Source of the DNA: Desulfobulbaceae bacterium
GTDB taxonomy: Bacteria > Desulfobacterota > Desulfobulbia > Desulfobulbales > Desulfobulbaceae
DNA: 61,197 nt
Direction: 5' to 3'
Assembly (NCBI GenBank): GCA_023544645.1
Contig: JAMJFO010000014.1
Span: forward strand, 1-61,197
Positions 18,927 through 60,566 of the stretch are shown here, piece after piece (the stretch's first letter is position 1; each line of letters starts with the position of its first letter). Position numbers and translations under genes: made by a program. A model generated the notes under the pieces. It made no database searches. It saw only the letters and a program-made list of their open reading frames with translations, and was not told where the DNA came from.

Positions 18927-19226
18927 TGGTCTGGCCGGATGTAAGCGGTCACAGGCGCCGCATTTTTTTGTCATCCATCGGCCTGCCCGCATACCTGATG
19001 CTCATCGGGCAGGCCCCTTCGCTGCCCCGTGGCCCCTATAACCGCAATAAATAAATGTCGGCCAAAACGCAATGCGTGATTGCTCCACCCCGCGAGTATC
19101 TATGTCCGGATTATCGTAAAAAATCCAAGACAGTCAAGGCAGCTGGAGTTCGTCCTTTCTAAGGCGGCAGGCCTTCCGGCTCGTTTCCCGTTGTTGACTT
19201 TCATAATCCGCAAGTCATATAATAAA
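18927..19226. other. Intergenic DNA before the riboswitch
   Basis: Apart from the inverted repeat at 18981-19014 no gene or RNA is seen. The promoter of the riboswitch transcript should lie in the AT-rich part near 19190-19226 (for example the TTGTTGACT and CATATAATAA stretches), but I cannot fix it. Confidence 0.4.
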
Positions 19227-19320
19227 AGCAACAATAGTATGATTTGATACCAGACAAAGCCAAACCTGCCGTGAGGCAGGGGCGGAAAACCACGGGTCTT
19301 ACGAGATAGCCGGGTTGCTG
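19227..19320 (+). promoter_or_regulatory. Cyclic-di-GMP-I (GEMM-I) riboswitch aptamer
   Basis: The segment 19253-19320 matches the GEMM-I plan: ACAAAGCCAAACC, then a stem CCTGCC/GGCAGG capped by the GNRA tetraloop GTGA, then GGGCGGAAAACC, ACGGGTCT and GATAGCCGGGTTGC. The base at the position called G20 in the Vibrio Vc2 aptamer is G (19259), the choice for c-di-GMP rather than cGAMP. Next to it the usual G-C pair is replaced by C-G (CC with GG), a compensating change. The closing stem P1 is probably AGCAAC (19227-19232) with GTTGCT (19314-19319), with a small extra GTAT/ATAC hairpin (19237-19250) in the linker. The alignment is from memory of the consensus. Confidence 0.88.
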
Positions 19321-19346
19321 TAACGATCAGCAACCCGTTTTTTTTT
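19311..19346 (+). terminator. Riboswitch-controlled rho-independent terminator
   Basis: CGGGTTGCTG (19311-19320) and CAGCAACCCG (19328-19337) form a perfect 10-bp stem with loop TAACGAT, followed by nine T (19338-19346). The 5' arm contains the 3' strand of the riboswitch P1 stem, so aptamer closure and terminator are mutually exclusive. Ligand binding should prevent termination, an ON switch for the gene at 19388. The exclusivity is seen in sequence; the direction is inference. Confidence 0.88.
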
Positions 19347-19387
19347 GCTCACGATCACCATAAATTAAATTGTGCGGGGGAAAAGGG

Positions 19388-22300
19388 ATGGCAGCCGAAA
19401 TCAGAAAGCTGGCACAAGTCATTGAGGACGAACATGAACTCATAAAAAAACGGCGAAAAAGGCTCTATCCCGAACTAAATAAATCCGGCGACTCCAAAGC
19501 AAATCTTGTCGGTCTGGCTCTTTCCGGTGGCGGAATCCGCTCAGGCATTACAAATCTCGGCGTCCTGTATGAAATGTCCCGGGTCGGCCTGTTCAGGATT
19601 GTCGATTACCTAAGCACGGTTTCCGGCGGCGGGTATATCGGCTGTTGCGCCTCCTCCCTTCTGTCACTGAAAAAACCCGATTCCGGCTCGATAACCGGCG
19701 ACAATGTATACACCTACGAGAATGGCGACAGCGACTTGTCTCTTTTTTCAGCAAGCTGGAGTTCGTTTCCCTTCCGCGACCTTCCCGTGGCCGGCAAAAA
19801 ATACCAGGCTGACGATCCCGCCCCCGGTTACAGCGAGGCCAATGCCTACTGCAGCAATTTCACCTCAAGAGACCAGGTCTTTCACCTCAGGGACCGGGCA
19901 AGCTATCTGATTCCCAGCTCACTCCCCTTTGGTTCTCATGTTATCAGGGCCATGGGGGCTGTAAGCGCCACCACCCTCCTCTCCCTCACCTGGTTTGCAA
20001 GTCTGCTTGTTTTCTTGACGACCATGTATATGCTCATCGCATTCCCGGCATGGAAAATCGACGGAACAGCGTTCCATCCGGCTTCCTCTCCACCGGTTGC
20101 CGACAGGCCGGCGTTAAAGGGCACACAACCGACGGATATAACCGTAAAGGGATTACCTGAAAAAACCGAAGACGGCGGAATCGTCAAGGGCATCATGGCG
20201 AGAGCCTCCAGGGCAATCAGCGATATAAAAGTCAGGCTGGCAGTCCAGGCAAAAGGTTTTTCAGAATTGGGCCCGAGCCGGCTGATCTTTTTGCTGTTGG
20301 GAATGGTCTGGGGTCTTGCGGCGCCTTTCTGCATGCATGCCCGGGGTAGAGCCATCAGGGCGAACAGGAGGATCGGCGAGGACAAGGAAAGCTTCGTAGG
20401 CAGGAAACAGTTGAAATGCATATCCCTGGTTACCATCGCCATGCTGTTCAGTGTTCTTGGAGTTTCCTACCAGCTTTTCAAGGGCACGTCCTCCTTCCCC
20501 GACGCCCGATTGTTATTCCCGGTGGTTTTTTCCATCGGCTGCCTGGCAGGCAGCCTCATATTGCTTTGCCTGCTGGCCGCTGATTTCTCCCCTTTGGGCC
20601 GCCGGAAAAAGGACAACCATACCGCTACCGGAGAAAAAGAGGGATACTGGCGCAGCCTGACATGGAATCGTATTTCCCGAGCGGAACTTTCCCTGTGCTC
20701 TGGAATTTTTCTCTATTGCCTGGCCGGAAGCTGTGTTTTCGCAGTCCTCCCCGCGTTTATTCTTTCCGGCAATGCCGGTTTTATTGCCCTGGTTCAGGCG
20801 GCAGTGATCATTGCGCTTCGTTACTACCTTTCCGGGAAAAAGAAAAAAACACCGGACATCAAACAGAGGAAGCTTACTGTTTTTCTGGCCAAAATAAACA
20901 AATGGCTGATGGGATTGTTGGCGCCTCTTTTCATTCTTCTGGCCGTCATAGGGATTGCCGCCTTTCTTGGGGGTTCGTTCTTCGGCGAAAACTGGCCCCA
21001 TACGATCATGCCCGGAAATATCACATGCGCATTATTCGTGCTGGCCCTGGCAGGATTGTTCGCGCTGACCCTGTCCCGGCTGAATTTCAACAACATATCT
21101 CCTCATGTATTCTACAAAGACCGCCTTGCCGAGGCTTTTCTGGCAACGTTCATGAAGTGCCCTCCCCAGGACGAAAACACCGGAAACATCCGGACCCGGA
21201 TGGATCTTGCCCGAAATTCAGTTGAAATGCACCTTGCCGACCTGCATGGAAACGAACCCCGCGAAAGAGGCACCAGTGCGAGCGCCTCGAGAGGGCCTTA
21301 TCTTCTTATCAACGCAACCCTGAATCTCACCGCTGCCAGGGACCTGCAGGGGTATCGGCGTCAATCTGAAAATTTTCTTTTTTCAAAATGCTATACCGGG
21401 TCGGAAAGAACCGGTTACCTGGCGACCAGCGCATACAACCCGCCCATTGAGCTCGGCAGGGCGATGACCATAAGCGGCGCCGCGCTGACCTCGGTCATGG
21501 GAGCCCAGGGGTCCCTGGCCGAATCATTTATCTGCACAATCCTGGGGGTCCGCCTGGGCTACTGGCTGCGCAATCCCGTGGACATGGCAAGAACGCTGAA
21601 GAAACGGACCTGGAACTGGAAGAACCTGTACTATGAACTTTTCCGCTATACCGATTCCCGGGACAGCCATGTTTACCTCAGCGATGGCGGTCATTGCGGC
21701 GACAACCTCGGCCTGCTCGCGTTGCTGCAGAGAAAAACCAAGCTGATCATCGCCTCGGATGCCGAATGCGACCCGGAGCATGTGTTTAATTCTCTCAACA
21801 ATTCCATTCGTCGCGCCTATGTTGATTACAACATCAAGATACATATTTCACTGGACGACCTGATACCCGATGAAAAAGGATTTACCCGAAGACATTTTGC
21901 CATCGGTAGAATCCTTTACCCGGACCGTCCCTGGCAAAAGAGCTGGCTGCTGGTCATCAAGAACACCATGACCGGGAAAGAAAGCACGCCGATCCTCAAT
22001 TATCGGAAAAAGAGTCCGGCGTTTCCCCACGAGACAACGGCCGACCAGTTTTTTACAGAGGAGCAGTTCGAGGTCTACAGATCACTTGGCCGTGAAGCCT
22101 GCATGGAAATATGGCGCGAAAACATCGATATTTTTCGCTCCGAAGAATGGTTGAAAAATCCCTGGTCCGGCATTGACAGGTTTTGCCAGAGTCTTGCGCA
22201 AGAACGCCACAAGTGGGATGATGTGATCAGGGCAATATGGAGTTCGGAAAGAGGTGATTTCAACACTTGGAGCGGTTTCCTGACCACCATCATAGAAATA

Positions 22301-22468
22301 AAGTCTTCCGGACCCAAAGACGACTCAACCATGGTAAAACAACTTCACGAACTGCACGGCTGGCTGAAAGAGAACAAGCGCCATTTCAAATGGCTGCAGG
22401 AAAAATTTGATGTTCCCAGAACCTGGAGCCAGTTTGAAGAAATCCGTTACCAGGTCGGCACCAGATAG
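19388..22468 (+). CDS. Large patatin-like phospholipase with internal membrane domain, under c-di-GMP riboswitch control
   Basis: The start at ATG 19388 (GGGGG at 19376-19380) gives 1026 residues; a TTG at 19370 is in frame but less likely. The N-terminal part has the patatin oxyanion motif SGGGIR (46-51) and the nucleophile Ser79 in STVSGGGYIG. The catalytic aspartate is in SDGGHCGDNLGL (Asp766), followed by LIIASDAECD. Between the two halves of the lipase, residues ~180-560 hold about eight hydrophobic segments, so the catalytic domain is split by a membrane region. The expected reaction is acyl-ester hydrolysis of membrane phospholipids or lysolipids. The family has soluble members; the insertion is unusual. 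Only one gene follows the riboswitch. Confidence 0.88.
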   Translation: MAAEIRKLAQVIEDEHELIKKRRKRLYPELNKSGDSKANLVGLALSGGGIRSGITNLGVLYEMSRVGLFRIVDYLSTVSGGGYIGCCASSLLSLKKPDSGSITGDNVYTYENGDSDLSLFSASWSSFPFRDLPVAGKKYQADDPAPGYSEANAYCSNFTSRDQVFHLRDRASYLIPSSLPFGSHVIRAMGAVSATTLLSLTWFASLLVFLTTMYMLIAFPAWKIDGTAFHPASSPPVADRPALKGTQPTDITVKGLPEKTEDGGIVKGIMARASRAISDIKVRLAVQAKGFSELGPSRLIFLLLGMVWGLAAPFCMHARGRAIRANRRIGEDKESFVGRKQLKCISLVTIAMLFSVLGVSYQLFKGTSSFPDARLLFPVVFSIGCLAGSLILLCLLAADFSPLGRRKKDNHTATGEKEGYWRSLTWNRISRAELSLCSGIFLYCLAGSCVFAVLPAFILSGNAGFIALVQAAVIIALRYYLSGKKKKTPDIKQRKLTVFLAKINKWLMGLLAPLFILLAVIGIAAFLGGSFFGENWPHTIMPGNITCALFVLALAGLFALTLSRLNFNNISPHVFYKDRLAEAFLATFMKCPPQDENTGNIRTRMDLARNSVEMHLADLHGNEPRERGTSASASRGPYLLINATLNLTAARDLQGYRRQSENFLFSKCYTGSERTGYLATSAYNPPIELGRAMTISGAALTSVMGAQGSLAESFICTILGVRLGYWLRNPVDMARTLKKRTWNWKNLYYELFRYTDSRDSHVYLSDGGHCGDNLGLLALLQRKTKLIIASDAECDPEHVFNSLNNSIRRAYVDYNIKIHISLDDLIPDEKGFTRRHFAIGRILYPDRPWQKSWLLVIKNTMTGKESTPILNYRKKSPAFPHETTADQFFTEEQFEVYRSLGREACMEIWRENIDIFRSEEWLKNPWSGIDRFCQSLAQERHKWDDVIRAIWSSERGDFNTWSGFLTTIIEIKSSGPKDDSTMVKQLHELHGWLKENKRHFKWLQEKFDVPRTWSQFEEIRYQVGTR

Positions 22469-22481
22469 AATGGAAAGTGGA

Positions 22482-22524
22482 AAGGGGATGGATTTATTTA
22501 ATACGGCAATAAACCCGTCCCCTT
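22482..22524 (+). terminator. Possible terminator hairpin of the patatin-like gene
   Basis: AAGGGGATGG (22482-22491) can pair with CCGTCCCCTT (22515-22524), with one G-U pair and a 23-base AT-rich loop; TTGTTCC follows. It starts 13 bases after the stop codon. The T-run is weak. Confidence 0.4.
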
Positions 22525-22535
22525 GTTCCGGTTAA

Positions 22536-22709
22536 CCCGCTTTTCTCACAAGGGTTGTCGCGAGAAGCCTTAAAGTGCTGTGGATACAAGGCGCTGTACC
22601 GAAAACATTCGCAGGCATACTGTGCGTATGTCGAGAATGTTTTCGGTGCTGCAACGCAGTAGACATGGTGCTTTCCGGTTTCGCAGCAGATTCTGGCGAG
22701 AAATGCGGG
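22536..22709 (+). mobile_element. 174-bp MITE-like element, copy 1
   Basis: The element runs from CCCGCTTTTCTCACAAG to CTGGCGAGAAATGCGGG, imperfect terminal inverted repeats of 17 bp. It is flanked by the 4-bp duplication TTAA (22532-22535 and 22710-22713). It has no coding capacity. Its centre forms a long hairpin around ACCGAAAACATTC and GAATGTTTTCGGT. A second copy of the same length in opposite orientation lies at 59722-59895. The terminal repeats here have decayed, so this copy looks older. TSDs TTAA and CTAG both fit YTAR, as used by some IS5-group transposases; 4-bp duplications also occur in IS1380. The mobilising family is unresolved. Confidence 0.88.
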
Positions 22710-22746
22710 TTAAGACAGTATTGACTCCTTTCTCGCGGAAATTATT

Positions 22747-24525
22747 TTATTCTTTAACTTTCACACCACACTCAGATTGTGCCGCTTCCGCAACCATCTC
22801 ATCCTTTTCGGCTTCGGTGATCAGGCCATCGAGCCAGAAACTCTCAACGGTTCTGGCAATACAACTCACATATGCTCCGTGGTTGCGCCATTGATTATCG
22901 CACGGACAAAGGTCCTGAGCGGAACATCCTGCACCATTAACCAACTGATAGGCGGCGGTGAAAGGACACTGATCGCCTTCAGCGATACCGTCACTATCCG
23001 CATCATTGTCGCAGACATTACCAATCCCGTCTCCATCAAAATCAGCCTGATCGCTGTTGTATTGCAACGGACAATTGTCTTCATTATCATCGATGCCGTC
23101 GTTATCCGCATCCGGATCACAGACGTTGCCCCAACCGTCCCCATCATCATCTGCCTGATTAGGATTAAACACTTCAGGGCAATTATCGACATCGCCACAC
23201 ACTCCGTCGCCATCACCATCGTTGTCCACGTCAGAAGGGCAGACATCACATGCATCTCCCATGATGTCGCCGTCTTCATCATACTGCATTGGATTAGGCA
23301 CTAACGGACAGTTGTCAACGTCGTCAGGATAACCGTCATCGTCACTATCCATTATGGCATCTTCACCATAAACGACAAAAGTGGTCAGGTGTTTGGTCCA
23401 GATGACCAGGTCATCACCGACAGATAAATATCCATCTTCAACACCGAGAGAATCGAGCAAAGATCCGTCATCCGCGCTCAGTTGCGTGGTTATTTCATGA
23501 TACACGTTGAGCCTTGACCATCCGACAGAACGCCCCGCTTCCCCGGGGATAAGTATCCGTACAGGAGCCGAGAAAGTCAGTTCTTCATCTTCCAGACCGA
23601 TTTCCAGAGCCAGGAGATATGGTGGCGTAACAGGCAGACCAAGTTCTACAGGATCAGGATATTCAACCACATAAGGGGCGTAAAAATTACCGGTAAAAGG
23701 CTGGCCGTTTTTATATATTACGAGGCCTGCAGGGAACTGCATGGTCACGTCACCTGCAGCCGTGCTGGTTGTCACGTTCTGCTGGTTGGATGGGGGGCCG
23801 AACCACTGAAGGTAATCACCGCCGTTTGGCACCTGCGGGTAAACAAGATTCGGCATGACCCCATCATAGTCATCGATGGTGACATTATCAAAAAAGAAGC
23901 CTGTATAACCGGAGGGATCGCAGGCAGAGCCTGTATGGTAGGGTCTGATACGATTGGAATCAATACGCCATCGGACACGAAAGTCGCTACCCACATAATC
24001 CGAACTTAAATTGGCGCTAGTATAGACTACCGAATAACAGGGAGATGACCCGGTGACCCTGCCCCCATAGGAGAAGTAGACATCGGTCCAGGTCATGCCG
24101 TTGTTGTTACTAACCTGCACTCGAACCGAATCTCCGGCATATGTCTGTATTGAGTGACGCCAGGCAAGAGTAAAGGTTTTGCCGGCAGATGAGCGGAGAT
24201 CAATCTTGGGGCTCATAGCATAACTGTGTTCACTTGTATAGCCACCTTCAAGGTAATAGGGATTATGCGTGCTGGTTCCCCAACAGTAATTATACACCGC
24301 TCCCCCGTCCGGGGAACCCATGACATTTGAATATCCGCATCGCCATGAACTGGTTGAACCACTCACCGTGCCGGATAAATAGCTCCCGCAGGTCGCCAAA
24401 AAGTTCTGATTATACACTCTGGCTGCTCCGGCATTTTCTGCAATGAGCAGCAGGAAGCAGCCGGACACTAAAGCTAAGCATGATATCGTCTGGATGAACA
24501 CCTTTCCCTTTTTGCGATCTCTCAT
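22747..24525 (-). CDS. Secreted protein with thrombospondin type-3 calcium-binding repeats
   Basis: The 592-residue protein has a signal peptide (residues ~8-35, ending AGA-AR). Residues ~36-215 form a beta-rich domain with paired cysteines. Residues ~225-370 are another beta-rich region (VVEYPDPVELGLPVTPP...). From ~385 to 535 it carries about seven Asp/Asn-rich thrombospondin type-3 repeats, such as DSDDDGYPDDVDNCP and DNDGIDDNEDNCP, each binding Ca2+. The final ~65 residues contain a cysteine-rich helical part (GCSAQDLCPCDNQWRNHG...). It is probably an adhesion or matrix protein outside the cell. The gene lies alone and ends 37 bases from the MITE copy. Confidence 0.85.
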   Translation of the reverse strand: MRDRKKGKVFIQTISCLALVSGCFLLLIAENAGAARVYNQNFLATCGSYLSGTVSGSTSSWRCGYSNVMGSPDGGAVYNYCWGTSTHNPYYLEGGYTSEHSYAMSPKIDLRSSAGKTFTLAWRHSIQTYAGDSVRVQVSNNNGMTWTDVYFSYGGRVTGSSPCYSVVYTSANLSSDYVGSDFRVRWRIDSNRIRPYHTGSACDPSGYTGFFFDNVTIDDYDGVMPNLVYPQVPNGGDYLQWFGPPSNQQNVTTSTAAGDVTMQFPAGLVIYKNGQPFTGNFYAPYVVEYPDPVELGLPVTPPYLLALEIGLEDEELTFSAPVRILIPGEAGRSVGWSRLNVYHEITTQLSADDGSLLDSLGVEDGYLSVGDDLVIWTKHLTTFVVYGEDAIMDSDDDGYPDDVDNCPLVPNPMQYDEDGDIMGDACDVCPSDVDNDGDGDGVCGDVDNCPEVFNPNQADDDGDGWGNVCDPDADNDGIDDNEDNCPLQYNSDQADFDGDGIGNVCDNDADSDGIAEGDQCPFTAAYQLVNGAGCSAQDLCPCDNQWRNHGAYVSCIARTVESFWLDGLITEAEKDEMVAEAAQSECGVKVKE

Positions 24526-25070
24526 ACCCCCCCCTTTTTTGTTCGCTTATTCAATGTCCTGAATCTGTAACGGCTTCCAGAGGCTGTATTGTACAACCAT
24601 CTGTTTTGACCCTTATTATGCCATTCAAATCCATATTTTTCGGAGACACCACCAAGCGGGTTGGCCGATTGGAATTTCAGACAACGCCATTTTTCCATAC
24701 GTCATATTTATCAGTTTGATATATGATATGAAAAAACTGTGCCAATAATTCTGCCCATTATGTAATTTTCCTTACCGGACCGTAATTTGTGTCCATCCAG
24801 AAACAAGGATTTTTGTTCGAGATCAAGGCATGCGAAAAAAATTGCCGCAGGCATATATCTGATATTCCGAGGATAATTTTTTGAGCATAACACAGAGATC
24901 GGGCAAAAAGACCGTTTCTGGATGGACATGTAGGGAAAGCAATAACAGGTTGAAGATATGGCTTCATTTGAAATCCGCATGGCAAGCTCAACCGCTCCCC
25001 GCTGCCAATGGGACGATATCGAAAGCTTACGGATTCAAGAAGATAACAGAAAATGTACAAGGACTTTTTC
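24526..25070. other. AT-rich intergenic region with an inverted-repeat element
   Basis: This region lies between divergent genes. It contains the 139-bp inverted-repeat unit described separately (24790-24928). Short frames inside are not supported by ribosome sites. The promoters of the flanking genes must lie here but none is clear. Confidence 0.5.
24790..24928. repeat. 139-bp unit bounded by 15-bp inverted repeats
   Basis: TGTCCATCCAGAAAC (24790-24804) and GTTTCTGGATGGACA (24914-24928) are exact inverted copies. The inner sequence is AT-rich and non-coding. I see no clear flanking target duplication. It could be a non-autonomous mobile element or a pair of REP-like sequences. Confidence 0.6.
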
Positions 25071-28000
25071 ATGACAAACCGCTCTTTTATTCACTTTCAC
25101 GCAATATTGATGACCGTTATGGCTCTTTTAACCTTTGCCGCCCTTGTGCCGGCATCTTCCTCTCATGCTGCAGACCGCGCCGACAATCCTGCGGAAAACA
25201 CCATCAACATCGCCTTTGATCCGGCCCGGTCATCCATGACCGGTACGTCCAGGATCACCCTGCCCCCGGATACTCCGCTCAAACTCTTTTGCGGCCCCCT
25301 GGAGATTACCGGAGCGATCCTGGAAATAGGCGGCAGAACCCCGCTCTCTCTGAAACCGACAACACAGAATATTCTCATCATTCCCGCCTCACCAACGGAA
25401 CAGGTCGTCTACGTCTCCTGGAGCCTTCTTGCCACGGGCAAGGACAACAACCTGATCAGCGACAAGGGCATAACCCTTGCCGGGTCCTGGCATCCGCTGC
25501 CGGATATTGATATGGTCTACCGGCTGGAGGCAAGGCTGCCCGAGGGCTTTACCGCCATCAGTGAAGGAGAAATCGTCACCTACTGCCTGGATAATTTGAA
25601 CAACAGGTATCTTACCACGTCCTTTGACCATCCCATCCGCTCCATCCATTTCGCCGCCGGACCTTATACGGTAAAAAGCAGAACCCTGCCGGGCGACATA
25701 CTCCTGTCGGCCTTCTTTTTTGAGGAAGACATCGAACTGGCCGAAGAATATCTGGATAAAGCCCAGTATTACCTGGAACTGTACCAGGAACTGTTGGGTC
25801 CGTATCCCTATAATCGGTACAGTATCGTTGAAAACCGGCTGCCGACGGGATACGGCATGCCGACCTACACCCTGCTTGGGCAGGCGGTGGTTCGCCTGCC
25901 CTTCATCAAGGACACCTCCCTCGGTCACGAAATACTGCATTCATGGTTCGGCAACAGCGTGTTGACCGCCGAGGACGGGGGCAACTGGAGCGAAGGACTG
26001 ACAACCTATCTTGGCGACCACTACTATGCCGAGCTGGCAGACCAGGGCGCGGACTACCGAAAAGGGCAGCTGCTGCGCTATGCATCCTATGTTCCGGCGG
26101 ACAATGATATGGCCCTCCGGGACTTCAACAATCCCAGCGACTCCCAGCCCATGGCCCGCCATATCCGGGCGGTGGGATACGACAAATCAGCCATGGTCTT
26201 CCACATGCTGCGGCAACAGCTTGGCGACGACCTCTTTTTCAAGGGACTGCGGGAATTCTACCGGAAATACCGTTTCACCCGAGCCGGATGGGACGAGATC
26301 GAAAAGAGCTTTACCGATGTTACAGGCACAGACCTGTCACCCTTTTTCGACCAGTGGCTGACCAGGCGGGACATACCGGAGCTGGACATCACTTCCATTG
26401 ATGTCACCCAGGTGAAAGGGCAGTCAACAATCTCATTTACCCTTCAACAAAATAGTGGTGAGCCCTATTCCCTGCTGGTGCCGGTCACGGTCAAGACCAG
26501 GACCAATACGGTGCAGCAGACTTTTCCCGTTTCCGAACAGAGCGTTGACATCGAGATGACCGTTGATGCGCTGCCGGTGGAAATGATCATTGATCCGGAC
26601 TATGACCTGATGCGGATGATCACCGTCGGCGAAACCCCGCCCATCTGGTCCCGGTTCATGGGCGCCGGTGAAAAAACCGTTGTTCTGCCCGTATCGGAAA
26701 AGGATGCGGAGATATACGCTCCCCTGCTCCCCATGCTTGAAGAGCTGGGATCTGAGATGATAGCGGCGGATGAACTTGCCAACGAGGATCTCGGCGGGGG
26801 CAGCTTTCTCTTTCTCGGCAGCTCCGAGCACACCCTCGGCCTGTTTGCCGGTCCATCCCATTCAGACCGTGGGGTGACTGTTGATGTGCGGGAAAACCCG
26901 CTGTCTCCCGCCCACGTCATGGCGATCATCACCTCGCCGGACAGGGAGCAGACCGGCCTGATCGCACGAAAACTCCGGCATTACGGCAAGTACAGTTTCC
27001 TCTATTTTGAGAACGGCCGGATCATCGAGAAAAATACCTCCCCGTCAAAGCAGGGCATGCGGGTCAATCTGTTTACCGAGCCTGAAGCTGTCCGGGTGCC
27101 GGACATCCGGAGCTTTGATGATATAATTGACGAAATACAAAGCAGCAGGGTGGTGTATGTAGGCGAAATGCACACTGATATGGGCAGCCATATGCTGCAG
27201 CTGCAGGTGATCCAGGCTTTGTACCAGGCCGACCCCGACCTGGCCGTCGGCATGGAAATGTTCCCCCGCTCATCCCAGGAAGCCCTGGACCGGTACATCA
27301 GCGGCGCCATTGATACGGAAAAGGAGTTCATCAAACAATCGGACTACTTCAACGTCTGGGGTTTTGATTACCGCTATTACCGGGATATCATAGAATATGC
27401 CCATCGCAACAAAATACCCATTGTCGGCCTGAATATTGAAAAAGCCATTGTCAGCAAGGTTTTCAAGGAAGGAAGTCTCGCCGGGCTTGACGAAGAACAG
27501 ATGCAGGTAATTCCCCCGGAGCGTAAACTCGATGCCCCGGGATACCGGGAGCGTCTTTCCCGGGCATTTTCCTCCCACGATCAACAAAATTTCACGGCTG
27601 ACAAGATCGGCGGTTTTATGCAGGCCCAGTCAATCTGGGACGAAGCCATGGCAGAATCCATTGTCAATTATCTTGCCGCCAACCCGGAGAAAAAAATGGT
27701 CGTTATTGCCGGCAACGGCCATATATACAAAGACAATGCCATTCCTCCCAGGGTGGTCCGGCGGATGGATATCCCCCAGAGCGTGCTCACCAGTATCCAC
27801 CAGGGAGGCACGGGCCTTGTCCCCGGCTACAAGGTGGACTACCTGGTCTACACCAGAACCATGGAACTTGAACCCTCACCCAAGGTCGGGGTGGTCCTTG
27901 AGGCGGAAAAAATCGACGACGATCCGGACCGAACCCGCCTGCGGATCAAGCAGATCAGCCCCCATGGCAAAGCCGGCGAGGCGGGTGTCAGGGAAAATGA

Positions 28001-28202
28001 CATTATCCTCTCGGTGGAGGGAGAAAAAATCGAAGACATCGAGGATCTGAAGATACTTCTCCTGGACAGGCATCCGGGCGATACCGTGACCATGAAGATC
28101 CTGCGGGAGCATACGCTGAGGCGGGATGAAGAGCTGGATCTTGAAGTGGAGCTTTCCCTGCCCATGCAATCCATGAGCATGCCCCCTTCGCATCCCCGGT
28201 AA
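25071..28202 (+). CDS. Exported M1-type metallopeptidase / ChaN-like / PDZ fusion protein
   Basis: The start at ATG 25071 is favoured by AAGGA seven bases upstream (another ATG lies at 25053), giving 1043 residues with a signal peptide (cut near SHA-AD). Residues ~40-440 are an M1-like gluzincin with the zinc motif HEILH (286-290) and the third ligand Glu308 in NWSEGL; the family's GAMEN exopeptidase motif is replaced around TGYGMP. Residues ~690-910 are a ChaN/DUF399 domain (VVYVGEMHTDMGSHMLQL, GMEMFPRSSQ, VVIAGNGHIYKDN) with its conserved GE-H and late GNGH motifs. Residues ~935-1025 are a PDZ domain (GEAGVRENDIILSVEG). It is probably a periplasmic peptidase linked to haem or metal handling. 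The fusion is read directly; function is inferred. Confidence 0.88.
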   Translation: MTNRSFIHFHAILMTVMALLTFAALVPASSSHAADRADNPAENTINIAFDPARSSMTGTSRITLPPDTPLKLFCGPLEITGAILEIGGRTPLSLKPTTQNILIIPASPTEQVVYVSWSLLATGKDNNLISDKGITLAGSWHPLPDIDMVYRLEARLPEGFTAISEGEIVTYCLDNLNNRYLTTSFDHPIRSIHFAAGPYTVKSRTLPGDILLSAFFFEEDIELAEEYLDKAQYYLELYQELLGPYPYNRYSIVENRLPTGYGMPTYTLLGQAVVRLPFIKDTSLGHEILHSWFGNSVLTAEDGGNWSEGLTTYLGDHYYAELADQGADYRKGQLLRYASYVPADNDMALRDFNNPSDSQPMARHIRAVGYDKSAMVFHMLRQQLGDDLFFKGLREFYRKYRFTRAGWDEIEKSFTDVTGTDLSPFFDQWLTRRDIPELDITSIDVTQVKGQSTISFTLQQNSGEPYSLLVPVTVKTRTNTVQQTFPVSEQSVDIEMTVDALPVEMIIDPDYDLMRMITVGETPPIWSRFMGAGEKTVVLPVSEKDAEIYAPLLPMLEELGSEMIAADELANEDLGGGSFLFLGSSEHTLGLFAGPSHSDRGVTVDVRENPLSPAHVMAIITSPDREQTGLIARKLRHYGKYSFLYFENGRIIEKNTSPSKQGMRVNLFTEPEAVRVPDIRSFDDIIDEIQSSRVVYVGEMHTDMGSHMLQLQVIQALYQADPDLAVGMEMFPRSSQEALDRYISGAIDTEKEFIKQSDYFNVWGFDYRYYRDIIEYAHRNKIPIVGLNIEKAIVSKVFKEGSLAGLDEEQMQVIPPERKLDAPGYRERLSRAFSSHDQQNFTADKIGGFMQAQSIWDEAMAESIVNYLAANPEKKMVVIAGNGHIYKDNAIPPRVVRRMDIPQSVLTSIHQGGTGLVPGYKVDYLVYTRTMELEPSPKVGVVLEAEKIDDDPDRTRLRIKQISPHGKAGEAGVRENDIILSVEGEKIEDIEDLKILLLDRHPGDTVTMKILREHTLRRDEELDLEVELSLPMQSMSMPPSHPR

Positions 28203-59137: not shown

Positions 59138-60566
59138 TTATCCGTCCAGGGGACTGGTGACGCCGAGTATGTTTCGACCGGCGACATGGGTATATATCAT
59201 GGTGGTCTGGAGGTTCGCATGGCCGAGCAGCTCCTGGATGGTCCTGATATCGTACCCTTTTTCCAACAGATGGGTGGCAAAACTGTGACGAAGCGAATGG
59301 ACAGTGGCACGCGTAACAATCCCGGCAGAACGTACTGCCTGTTTGAATCGCCGTTGCAGAATGGAAACATGCAAATGATGACGCCGTATTTTTTTACTTC
59401 TGGGATCAGTTGAATACCCACCGGCCGGGAAAAGCCAGAACCATCCCCACTCCCTGCCGGCGTTTGGATACTTTCGCTCCAGGGCTTCCGGCAGCCAGAC
59501 GCCTTCGCTCACCCCCTCCGCGACATCGCGCTCATACAACCGCCGGACACCTTCGAGATGATCGTGCAGGTCATTCTTGAGCGATTCGGGCAGGACGGTT
59601 ATCCGGTCCTTGTCCCCCTTGCCGGAACGGATGGTAAGAGAACTCTGTTCGAAGTCGAGGTCATGGATGCGCAGACTTGCGCATTCCTGCACCCTGAGTC
59701 CGCATCCATAGATGAGTCTAGCCCGCATTTCTCACAAGAATCTACTGCGAACCCGGAAAGCACCATGTCTACTGCGTTGCAGCACCGAAAACATTCTCGA
59801 CATACGTACAGTATGCCTGCGAGTGTTTTCGGTACAGCGCCTTGTATCCACGTCACTTTACGGCTTCTCGCGACAACCCTTGTGAGAAATGCGGGCTAGC
59901 CATGAGGAGGCTTGCGCCGTCAAGTTGGCTGAAAATCCGCTGCACATCCTGTCTGCTGAGAACAACCGGAAGCCTTCGCCGCTTATTGGCTCGCACCGTA
60001 TCGGAGATATCGGTCAATTCGCGGTCCAGAACATTGCGAAAGAGAAAAAGCAAGGCGCTGAATGCCTGGTTCTGCGTGGAGGCGGACACTTTTCCCTCCA
60101 CAGCGATATGACTGAGAAATCTTTTGACATCGCGGGAATCGACCTTTCCGGGATGCTTGCCCTCCAGAAAGGAATAAAAGGAACGGAGCCATTTCAGGTA
60201 GGATTGCTCGGTGCGGATGGAACGGTGCCTGAGGCGGAGCGCTTCCTTCATCTGGTCAATGATCAGCTTCCAGGCGTCGTTGGCCTCCAGCGGCATAATG
60301 GTTTCCTGGACTTTTTTATCGCCGCGGGCAATGTAATAAAAAAATATCCGCAATGCCTCGCGGGCCTGCTTCACTTGCCACTCCTCGGTGGACTTGGCAA
60401 GCTGATGCAGAAACGGCTCGATCTCCCGGTCATCGGCAGGAACAACTTCCTGTTTTCCGATAAAAGTCAAAAACCTGGATACCCAATGAACATAAAATGG
60501 CCGCCTCTTTTGCGGAACGATTCCATTGGCTTCCAGATATTTTTCGAATACTTGAAGATCAGCCAT
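59138..60566 (-). pseudogene. Integron integrase (IntI-type tyrosine recombinase) broken by a 174-bp insertion
   Basis: Two frames, 60566-59853 and 59728-59138, are the halves of one protein. Without the element at 59722-59895 and one CTAG copy, the reading joins as ...[19 protein letters not shown].... The C-terminal half has the integron-specific insert ([20 protein letters not shown]) and active-site residues: Arg in GLRVQE, HSLRH, and Tyr in TTMIYTH. The N-terminal half has the usual SAM-like core-binding domain (RTEQSYLKWLRSFYSFLE) plus an extra ~100 residues resembling a second one. The start ATG 60566 has GGAGG upstream. Read through, the first half ends in SPHFSQGLSREAVK and lacks the catalytic domain, so the integrase must be inactive. 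Confidence 0.93.
59722..59895 (-). mobile_element. 174-bp MITE-like element, copy 2, inside the integrase gene
   Basis: CCCGCATTTCTCACAAG (59722-59738) and CTTGTGAGAAATGCGGG (59879-59895) are perfect 17-bp terminal inverted repeats. CTAG is duplicated at both sides (59718-59721 and 59896-59899). The element is the inverse of copy 1 (22536-22709), same length, with only scattered mismatches, and has the same long central hairpin. Perfect ends and a clean duplication suggest a recent insertion. It has no transposase and must be moved in trans. Confidence 0.94.

Follow-up and report, generated by a model that had tools for sequence, protein, structure and literature searches.

The window analyzed here is a stretch of 61,197 nucleotides from a Desulfobulbaceae bacterium. 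On its forward strand, a promoter-like site, a GEMM-I aptamer, a terminator that overlaps this aptamer, and a gene for a patatin-like membrane protein follow one another (Table 1). Upstream, the forward strand also carries cytochrome bd genes; downstream, the opposite strand carries a TSP3-repeat gene. A scan of 22400–22800, which takes in the 3' end of the patatin-like gene, returned no terminator-like site. Directly 3' of this gene is a 182-bp element (22532–22713) with 21-nt inverted ends (TTAACCCGC...GCGGGTTAA), which looks like a miniature inverted-repeat element; a second copy, 93% identical, lies at 59719–59898, and pieces occur in loci L041 and L005. At 25053–28202 (+), the window also encodes a 1049-aa protein that unites M1 peptidase, ChaN-like haem-binding, and PDZ domains, an unusual combination.

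Table 1. Features of the riboswitch–patatin locus, in positions of the window.
Feature	Position	Strand	Basis
Sigma-70-like promoter, TTGACT-18-TATAAT, 25 nt 5' of the aptamer	19194–19223	+	11 of 12 consensus matches
GUAU/AUAC hairpin of 4 bp, immediately 5' of the core	19237–19250	+	several minimum-energy folds; different pairing in others
GEMM-I aptamer	19249–19322	+	RF03167, RF01051, and R1 scores; residue map
Aptamer residues	G14 19253, G20 19259, C21 19260, G46 19285, A47 19286, C92 19318, U93 19319
P2 with GTGA tetraloop (19271–19274)	19260–19285	+	pair list
P3; 3' strand doubles as part of the terminator 5' arm	19288–19316	+	pair list
Intrinsic terminator, 10 bp, 7-nt loop, captures C92	19311–19337	+	folding
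Nine T (U-tract)	19338–19346	+	sequence
Patatin-like protein, 1026 aa, with eight hydrophobic segments within residues 192–563	19388–22468	+	ORF, Pfam, motifs

A cmscan run over the whole window, in which the lower-scoring match of the same clan was left out, gave RF03167 (c-di-GMP-I-GGC) as the sole match above gathering, at 19250–19323 (+) with 69.9 bits (E 1.6e-14; gathering score 59); this was also the best-scoring Rfam model. An earlier note had assigned the RNA to the GEMM-I class and proposed a search with RF01051 (c-di-GMP-I) as the check, the lack of a match counting against the assignment. This search returned 19249–19322; the score, 64.2 bits, exceeds the gathering score of 35. Our own covariance model, R1, scored the aptamer at 79.7 bits, the window sequence being part of its seed. 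P2, P3, the tetraloop, and the contact residues are all intact; the ligand-contact residues G20, A47, and C92 are present in the residue map, and the GTGA loop, ACGGGTCT, and GATAGCCGGGTT can be read in the sequence as the note had it. We take the residue numbers to be those of Vc2, and P3 is presumably shorter than in that RNA. The leader (19229–19350) folds with a z-score of -3.1, and 0 of 200 shuffles folded equally well.

The class assignment can be refined by comparing single residues. The RNA shares G20, A47, and C92 with RF01051 but differs from it in its first P2 pair, which is C–G, not G–C; the pair found, C21–G46, is the GEMM-Ib state. RF03167 gives the top score, yet the consensus of this model has G at position 47, which we take to be the feature behind the name c-di-GMP-I-GGC, where the window RNA has A. 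In the Geobacter cGAMP aptamer, as described in PMC6274999, P1 ends with G8–C76, J1/2 spans A9–A14, P2 starts with C15–G40, J2/3 is A41, and J1/3 is G74–C75. The J1/2 of the window aptamer likewise has six bases, whereas the A expected of GEMM-Ib at the selectivity position (A14 in the Geobacter aptamer) is replaced by G at 19259. Judged by this residue comparison (PMC6274999, in part), the window RNA is best described as a GEMM-Ib scaffold with G replacing A at the selectivity position.

RF01051 was searched in 37 genomes, including that of the window, and 24 of them gave matches with an E of at most 0.001. We used 124 of the listed matches (33 as loci and 91 fetched) and left out two below the family cut-off. 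Our model R1, derived from 18 of these aptamers, then gave 131 rows. Of these, 126 were distinct: besides the 124, the same loci held two additional matches. Three low-scoring rows (24.9, 27.9, and 30.1 bits) were retained. G20, A47, and C92 occur together in 119 of the 126 surveyed aptamers. The first P2 pair is C21–G46 in 99, G21–C46 in 21, and another pair in six, so the C–G for G–C swap, which the earlier note had called a peculiarity, is rather the majority state, and it is also found, as C15–G40, in the Geobacter cGAMP aptamer (PMC6274999, in part). An exact pattern demanding the swap had 115 matches, 80 of which were aligned; among the matches listed, record titles named Desulfovibrio, Desulfobulbaceae, Sulfurovum, Methylomicrobium, and others. 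A C–G first P2 pair combined with G20 is thus the common type among the relatives of the window's genome. Three of these relatives (G006, G022, and G030) hold 25, 21, and 24 GEMM-I matches, respectively, versus five in the window's genome.

The survey also bears on the RF03167 label. Over 20 scanned loci, the top riboswitch label was RF03167 in 17 and RF01051 in three. Where the model consensus is G, alignment A1 shows A47 in each of its 18 aptamers and the survey shows it in 125 of 126. The label on the window aptamer is not taken as evidence for a different ligand. The label c-di-GMP-I-GGC falls on many aptamers that do not have the model's G47; given that RF03167 outscores RF01051 in 17 of 20 loci although none of the 18 aligned aptamers carries this G, automatic labels may mislead on the ligand.

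The aptamer, its overlap with the terminator, and the order of the two folding energies were computed directly. The terminator, taken with the first five tail bases, has a z-score of -6.1. The earlier note had described a terminator whose 5' arm reuses an aptamer strand and is followed by nine T, which is what the sequence contains: the overlap includes nucleotides of six of the 18 aptamer-core pairs, as well as C92, which pairs with G19330. The mutual exclusion of aptamer and terminator, also proposed there, agrees with these shared nucleotides and with constrained folds, which gave -30.3 kcal/mol for the aptamer core and -38.6 kcal/mol for the terminator. In folds of the growing transcript, P2 and P3 are kept up to 19334, and the change comes at 19336. 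Support for the promoter is modest because the 801 bases scanned contain two such sites versus a mean of 0.9 (sd 1.0) after shuffling. The start codon of the patatin-like gene lies 50 nt downstream of the terminator stem, which suggests control at termination and not at the ribosome site.

Taken in order of transcription, polymerase would start near 19230 and transcribe the aptamer first. If a cyclic dinucleotide, most likely c-di-GMP, bound before completion of the terminator's 3' arm, C92 and the outer P3 strand would be kept in the aptamer, the terminator would not form, and the patatin-like gene would be transcribed. Without ligand, the 3' arm would capture C92 and the outer P3 strand, and transcription would end at the U-tract. 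A comparable arrangement has been described for the GEMM-Ib pilM riboswitch of Geobacter metallireducens, in which C75 is taken up by the terminator unless cGAMP keeps the terminator from forming (PMC9262584, in part). The two RNAs are alike in aptamer class, in having the ligand-pairing C (C75 in pilM and C92 in the window) captured by the terminator, and in ON logic. The window RNA differs from pilM in its selectivity position, which is G where pilM has A, in its weak P1, and in its target, which is patatin-like where that of pilM is a pilus gene. We read the leader as a GEMM-I riboswitch acting by transcription attenuation, predicted to be an ON switch and most likely to respond to c-di-GMP, and give this reading a probability of roughly 0.7.

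Stems that overlap the aptamer and precede a T-rich tail were also sought in the survey, and stems of at least 6 bp were found in 82 and of at least 9 bp in 63 of the 126 loci. When the downstream stretches were swapped between loci, the mean was 75.7 (maximum 82) for the shorter and 41.5 (maximum 45) for the longer limit; when they were shuffled, the means were 24.4 and 2.0. Stems of at least 6 bp are thus no commoner than in the swapped control, which counts against the switch reading, whereas those of at least 9 bp are. A 3' strand shared between aptamer and terminator is thus a trait of the whole group, with only the long stems exceeding the swapped control.

The real oddity of the window aptamer is its P1, not the C–G swap. 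G14–U93 is the single case among the 126 surveyed aptamers, 105 of which have G14–C93. In the modelled P1 columns, it is the only one of three pairs that is standard; across the survey, one standard pair is seen in 12 aptamers, two in 68, and three in 46. In some ligand-free folds, C92 pairs with a G in a P1-like stem. The extra small hairpin that the earlier note placed in the P1 linker does appear in some folds as a 4-bp stem, but it sits just 5' of the core and is missing from other folds. The weak P1 could possibly lower ligand affinity: the pilM aptamer with a shortened P1 bound at 18 uM, and the full aptamer 43-fold better (PMC9262584, in part). Together with the observation that the gene is unmatched in six congeners, these data could be read as signs of a decaying or nonfunctional copy, in which a degraded P1 would bind ligand poorly and the terminator would act as a plain attenuator. 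The intact P2, P3, tetraloop, and contact residues argue against decay, as do a terminator stem that is perfect over 10 bp despite U93 and the intact promoter-like site and reading frame. Moreover, when P1 flanks are ordered by duplex energy, the window ranks 72 of 126 and hence falls near the middle of the survey. We consider decay unlikely and a predicted ON switch the likelier reading.

The ligand was approached through the enzymes encoded in the window's genome (3.85 Mb, 153 contigs), which has nine GGDEF matches, six of them with an intact GG[DE]EF. The residue that follows GHxxG, or the equivalent sequence, is at what we take to be the Hypr motif position; it is D in seven and N in two of these matches, and a search of all nine for the Hypr serine found none. 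Hypr enzymes have serine at this position (PMC6456294; PMC8835794; both in part). A DncV family search of the genome gave no match, but it was uninformative because the control genomes gave none either. On the RNA side, an A20G change turned the Gmet_0970 GEMM-Ib aptamer from cGAMP to c-di-GMP (PMC6456294, in part). Conversely, C21–G46 and the six-base J1/2 are as in the Geobacter aptamer (PMC6274999, in part), and one Geobacter switch, that of the OmcST operon, was reported to be sensitive to both ligands (PMC6456294, in part); a switch sensing 3',3'-cGAMP, or both dinucleotides as in Geobacter GEMM-Ib, would also turn the gene on. However, position 20 is G, where the cGAMP aptamer has A (PMC6274999, in part), and with no Hypr serine in the genome's GGDEF matches we set cGAMP aside as distinctly improbable. 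Based on G20 and the nine GGDEF domains, we infer that c-di-GMP is the likelier ligand. The earlier claim that c-di-GMP should switch the gene ON agrees with the predicted logic, which was obtained by computation, and c-di-GMP is the probable ligand by G20 and the GGDEF residues.

As the earlier note had proposed, the first gene after the switch encodes a patatin-like membrane protein, with its ATG at 19388, the expected motifs, and eight hydrophobic segments. The motifs are GGGIR (residue 47), STVSGGG (76), and LSDGGH (764), and the Ser and Asp motifs (S-G-G and DGG) are invariant in four aligned homologues; we take this Ser and Asp to have the roles they have in patatin-like phospholipases. 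The protein shares GGGxR, S-x-V-S-G-G, and DGG with proteins annotated as members of the patatin-like phospholipase family (on Mesorhizobium, Rhizobium, and Sinorhizobium plasmids, among others), but differs from patatin-like phospholipases in that a membrane region separates its motifs, which stand some 690 residues from each other, and in that Pfam patatin stays below cut-off. PF01734 matched over its first 51 positions with 25.2 bits, and a 480-aa piece that begins earlier reached 27.4 bits, both below the cut-off of 27.7. A four-row profile matched VipD at E 0.016 and cytosolic phospholipase A2 with E values of 0.002 to 0.0028. At E 0.1, neither the NCBIfam nor the PADLOC models gave a match; a CBASS-type patatin effector, considered as the identity of the target, was rejected on the PADLOC result. 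By these motifs the protein is a putative lipase, and the link to lipid turnover that the earlier note suggested, which draws on the motifs, may hold.

GEMM switches are known to precede cytochrome, pilus, and polysaccharide genes (PMC6456294, in part). For comparison, we took the longest ORF starting at most 700 nt from each of 208 distinct aptamers, a mechanical rule by which some picks are surely wrong. This gave an ORF for 124 of the 126 relatives' aptamers, 111 of which were run against Pfam (the 13 left out were mostly short). The commonest of 116 families were cytochrome c7 (seven), cytochrome c3 (six), bacterial Ig (six), and cadherin-like (six), and by a crude rule 83 of the 124 ORFs have a hydrophobic N-terminus. 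By eye, the other four GEMMs in the window's genome precede genes for a TSP3-like repeat protein, a multiheme cytochrome, and a metalloprotease-like protein, and a CBS-domain gene. A blastp search of the window protein against the downstream ORFs for a second patatin returned only itself, the next best match having an E of 2.5. Among GEMM-controlled genes, the patatin-like target stands out. One candidate for a second lipase target, in Desulfogranum marinum (L130:201-575), a species that NCBI assigns to Desulfobulbaceae of the Desulfobulbales, is a 92-aa fragment after a GEMM that resembles the catalytic domain of the phospholipase Tle1; it is below the Pfam cut-off, ends in a stop, and was not counted. 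In the open-licence PMC literature, we found no report of a patatin, lipase, or phospholipase gene preceded by a c-di-GMP/GEMM riboswitch.

Whether the pairing recurs was assessed by whole-genome searches, since a pattern search for named relatives matched 14 stretches, none of which was confirmed. With the window protein as query, matches were found in its own genome and seven others out of 57, and none in six congeners (74 to 96% complete); when 257 genomes of the order were searched with a four-row profile, 20 had matches, its own included. Over 27 loci, the GEMM model returned the window's aptamer and a strong match (72.1 bits) at L276, from another family (genome G227), plus two further matches at chance level (E 0.48 and 0.87), and cmscan of 20 of these loci gave the same two aptamers. 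The L276 aptamer has, by eye, C14 and C93; it ends 110 nt before the ATG of the homologue, and an overlapping terminator lies 3' of it. The two proteins are 34% identical over 747 columns and 53% over 178 columns. Nine more stretches (five farther upstream of listed loci and four from 395 genomes of the phylum) contained no GEMM better than E 0.43. The combination of GEMM-I, terminator, and patatin-like homologue, again computed directly, recurs once, in another family of the same order.

In a tree of 22 proteins, the window protein forms a clade with L276, L310, L308, and L309 (support 100/100). L276 and L310 are sisters (99/99), and the joining of this pair to the window protein is weaker (86/87). 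Within the clade, the switch is present in the window and L276 and absent from L310 and L308, whereas L309 is cut by a contig end, which makes two of four assessable cases. Outside it, none of 16 homologues has the switch, each with at least 525 nt upstream covered, and a 17th, L278, is cut. Elsewhere in their genomes, G245 (L310) has 20 GEMM matches, G227 seven, and G589 and G431 none; that two of the four lack the switch, L310 in a genome with so many other GEMMs, counts against the switch reading. Either the pairing is old and was then lost, or gain or transfer happened repeatedly. Given 126 listed matches in 37 genomes, or about 3.4 per genome, a second pairing by chance among some twenty homologues is unlikely, as an estimate rather than a test.

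The kind of riboswitch is ordinary and known; the unusual part is the lipase-like target, for which no earlier report was found. Tentatively, and with considerable doubt, we suggest that a GEMM-I switch on a GEMM-Ib scaffold, tuned to c-di-GMP, may control a clade of membrane patatin-like lipases in Desulfobulbales and so connect c-di-GMP directly, through RNA, to the turnover of membrane lipids, and that the poor P1 of both patatin switches may set a high ligand threshold. If a patatin-like membrane target in two families of one order is true, membrane lipid hydrolysis would join the cyclic-dinucleotide programme of these bacteria.
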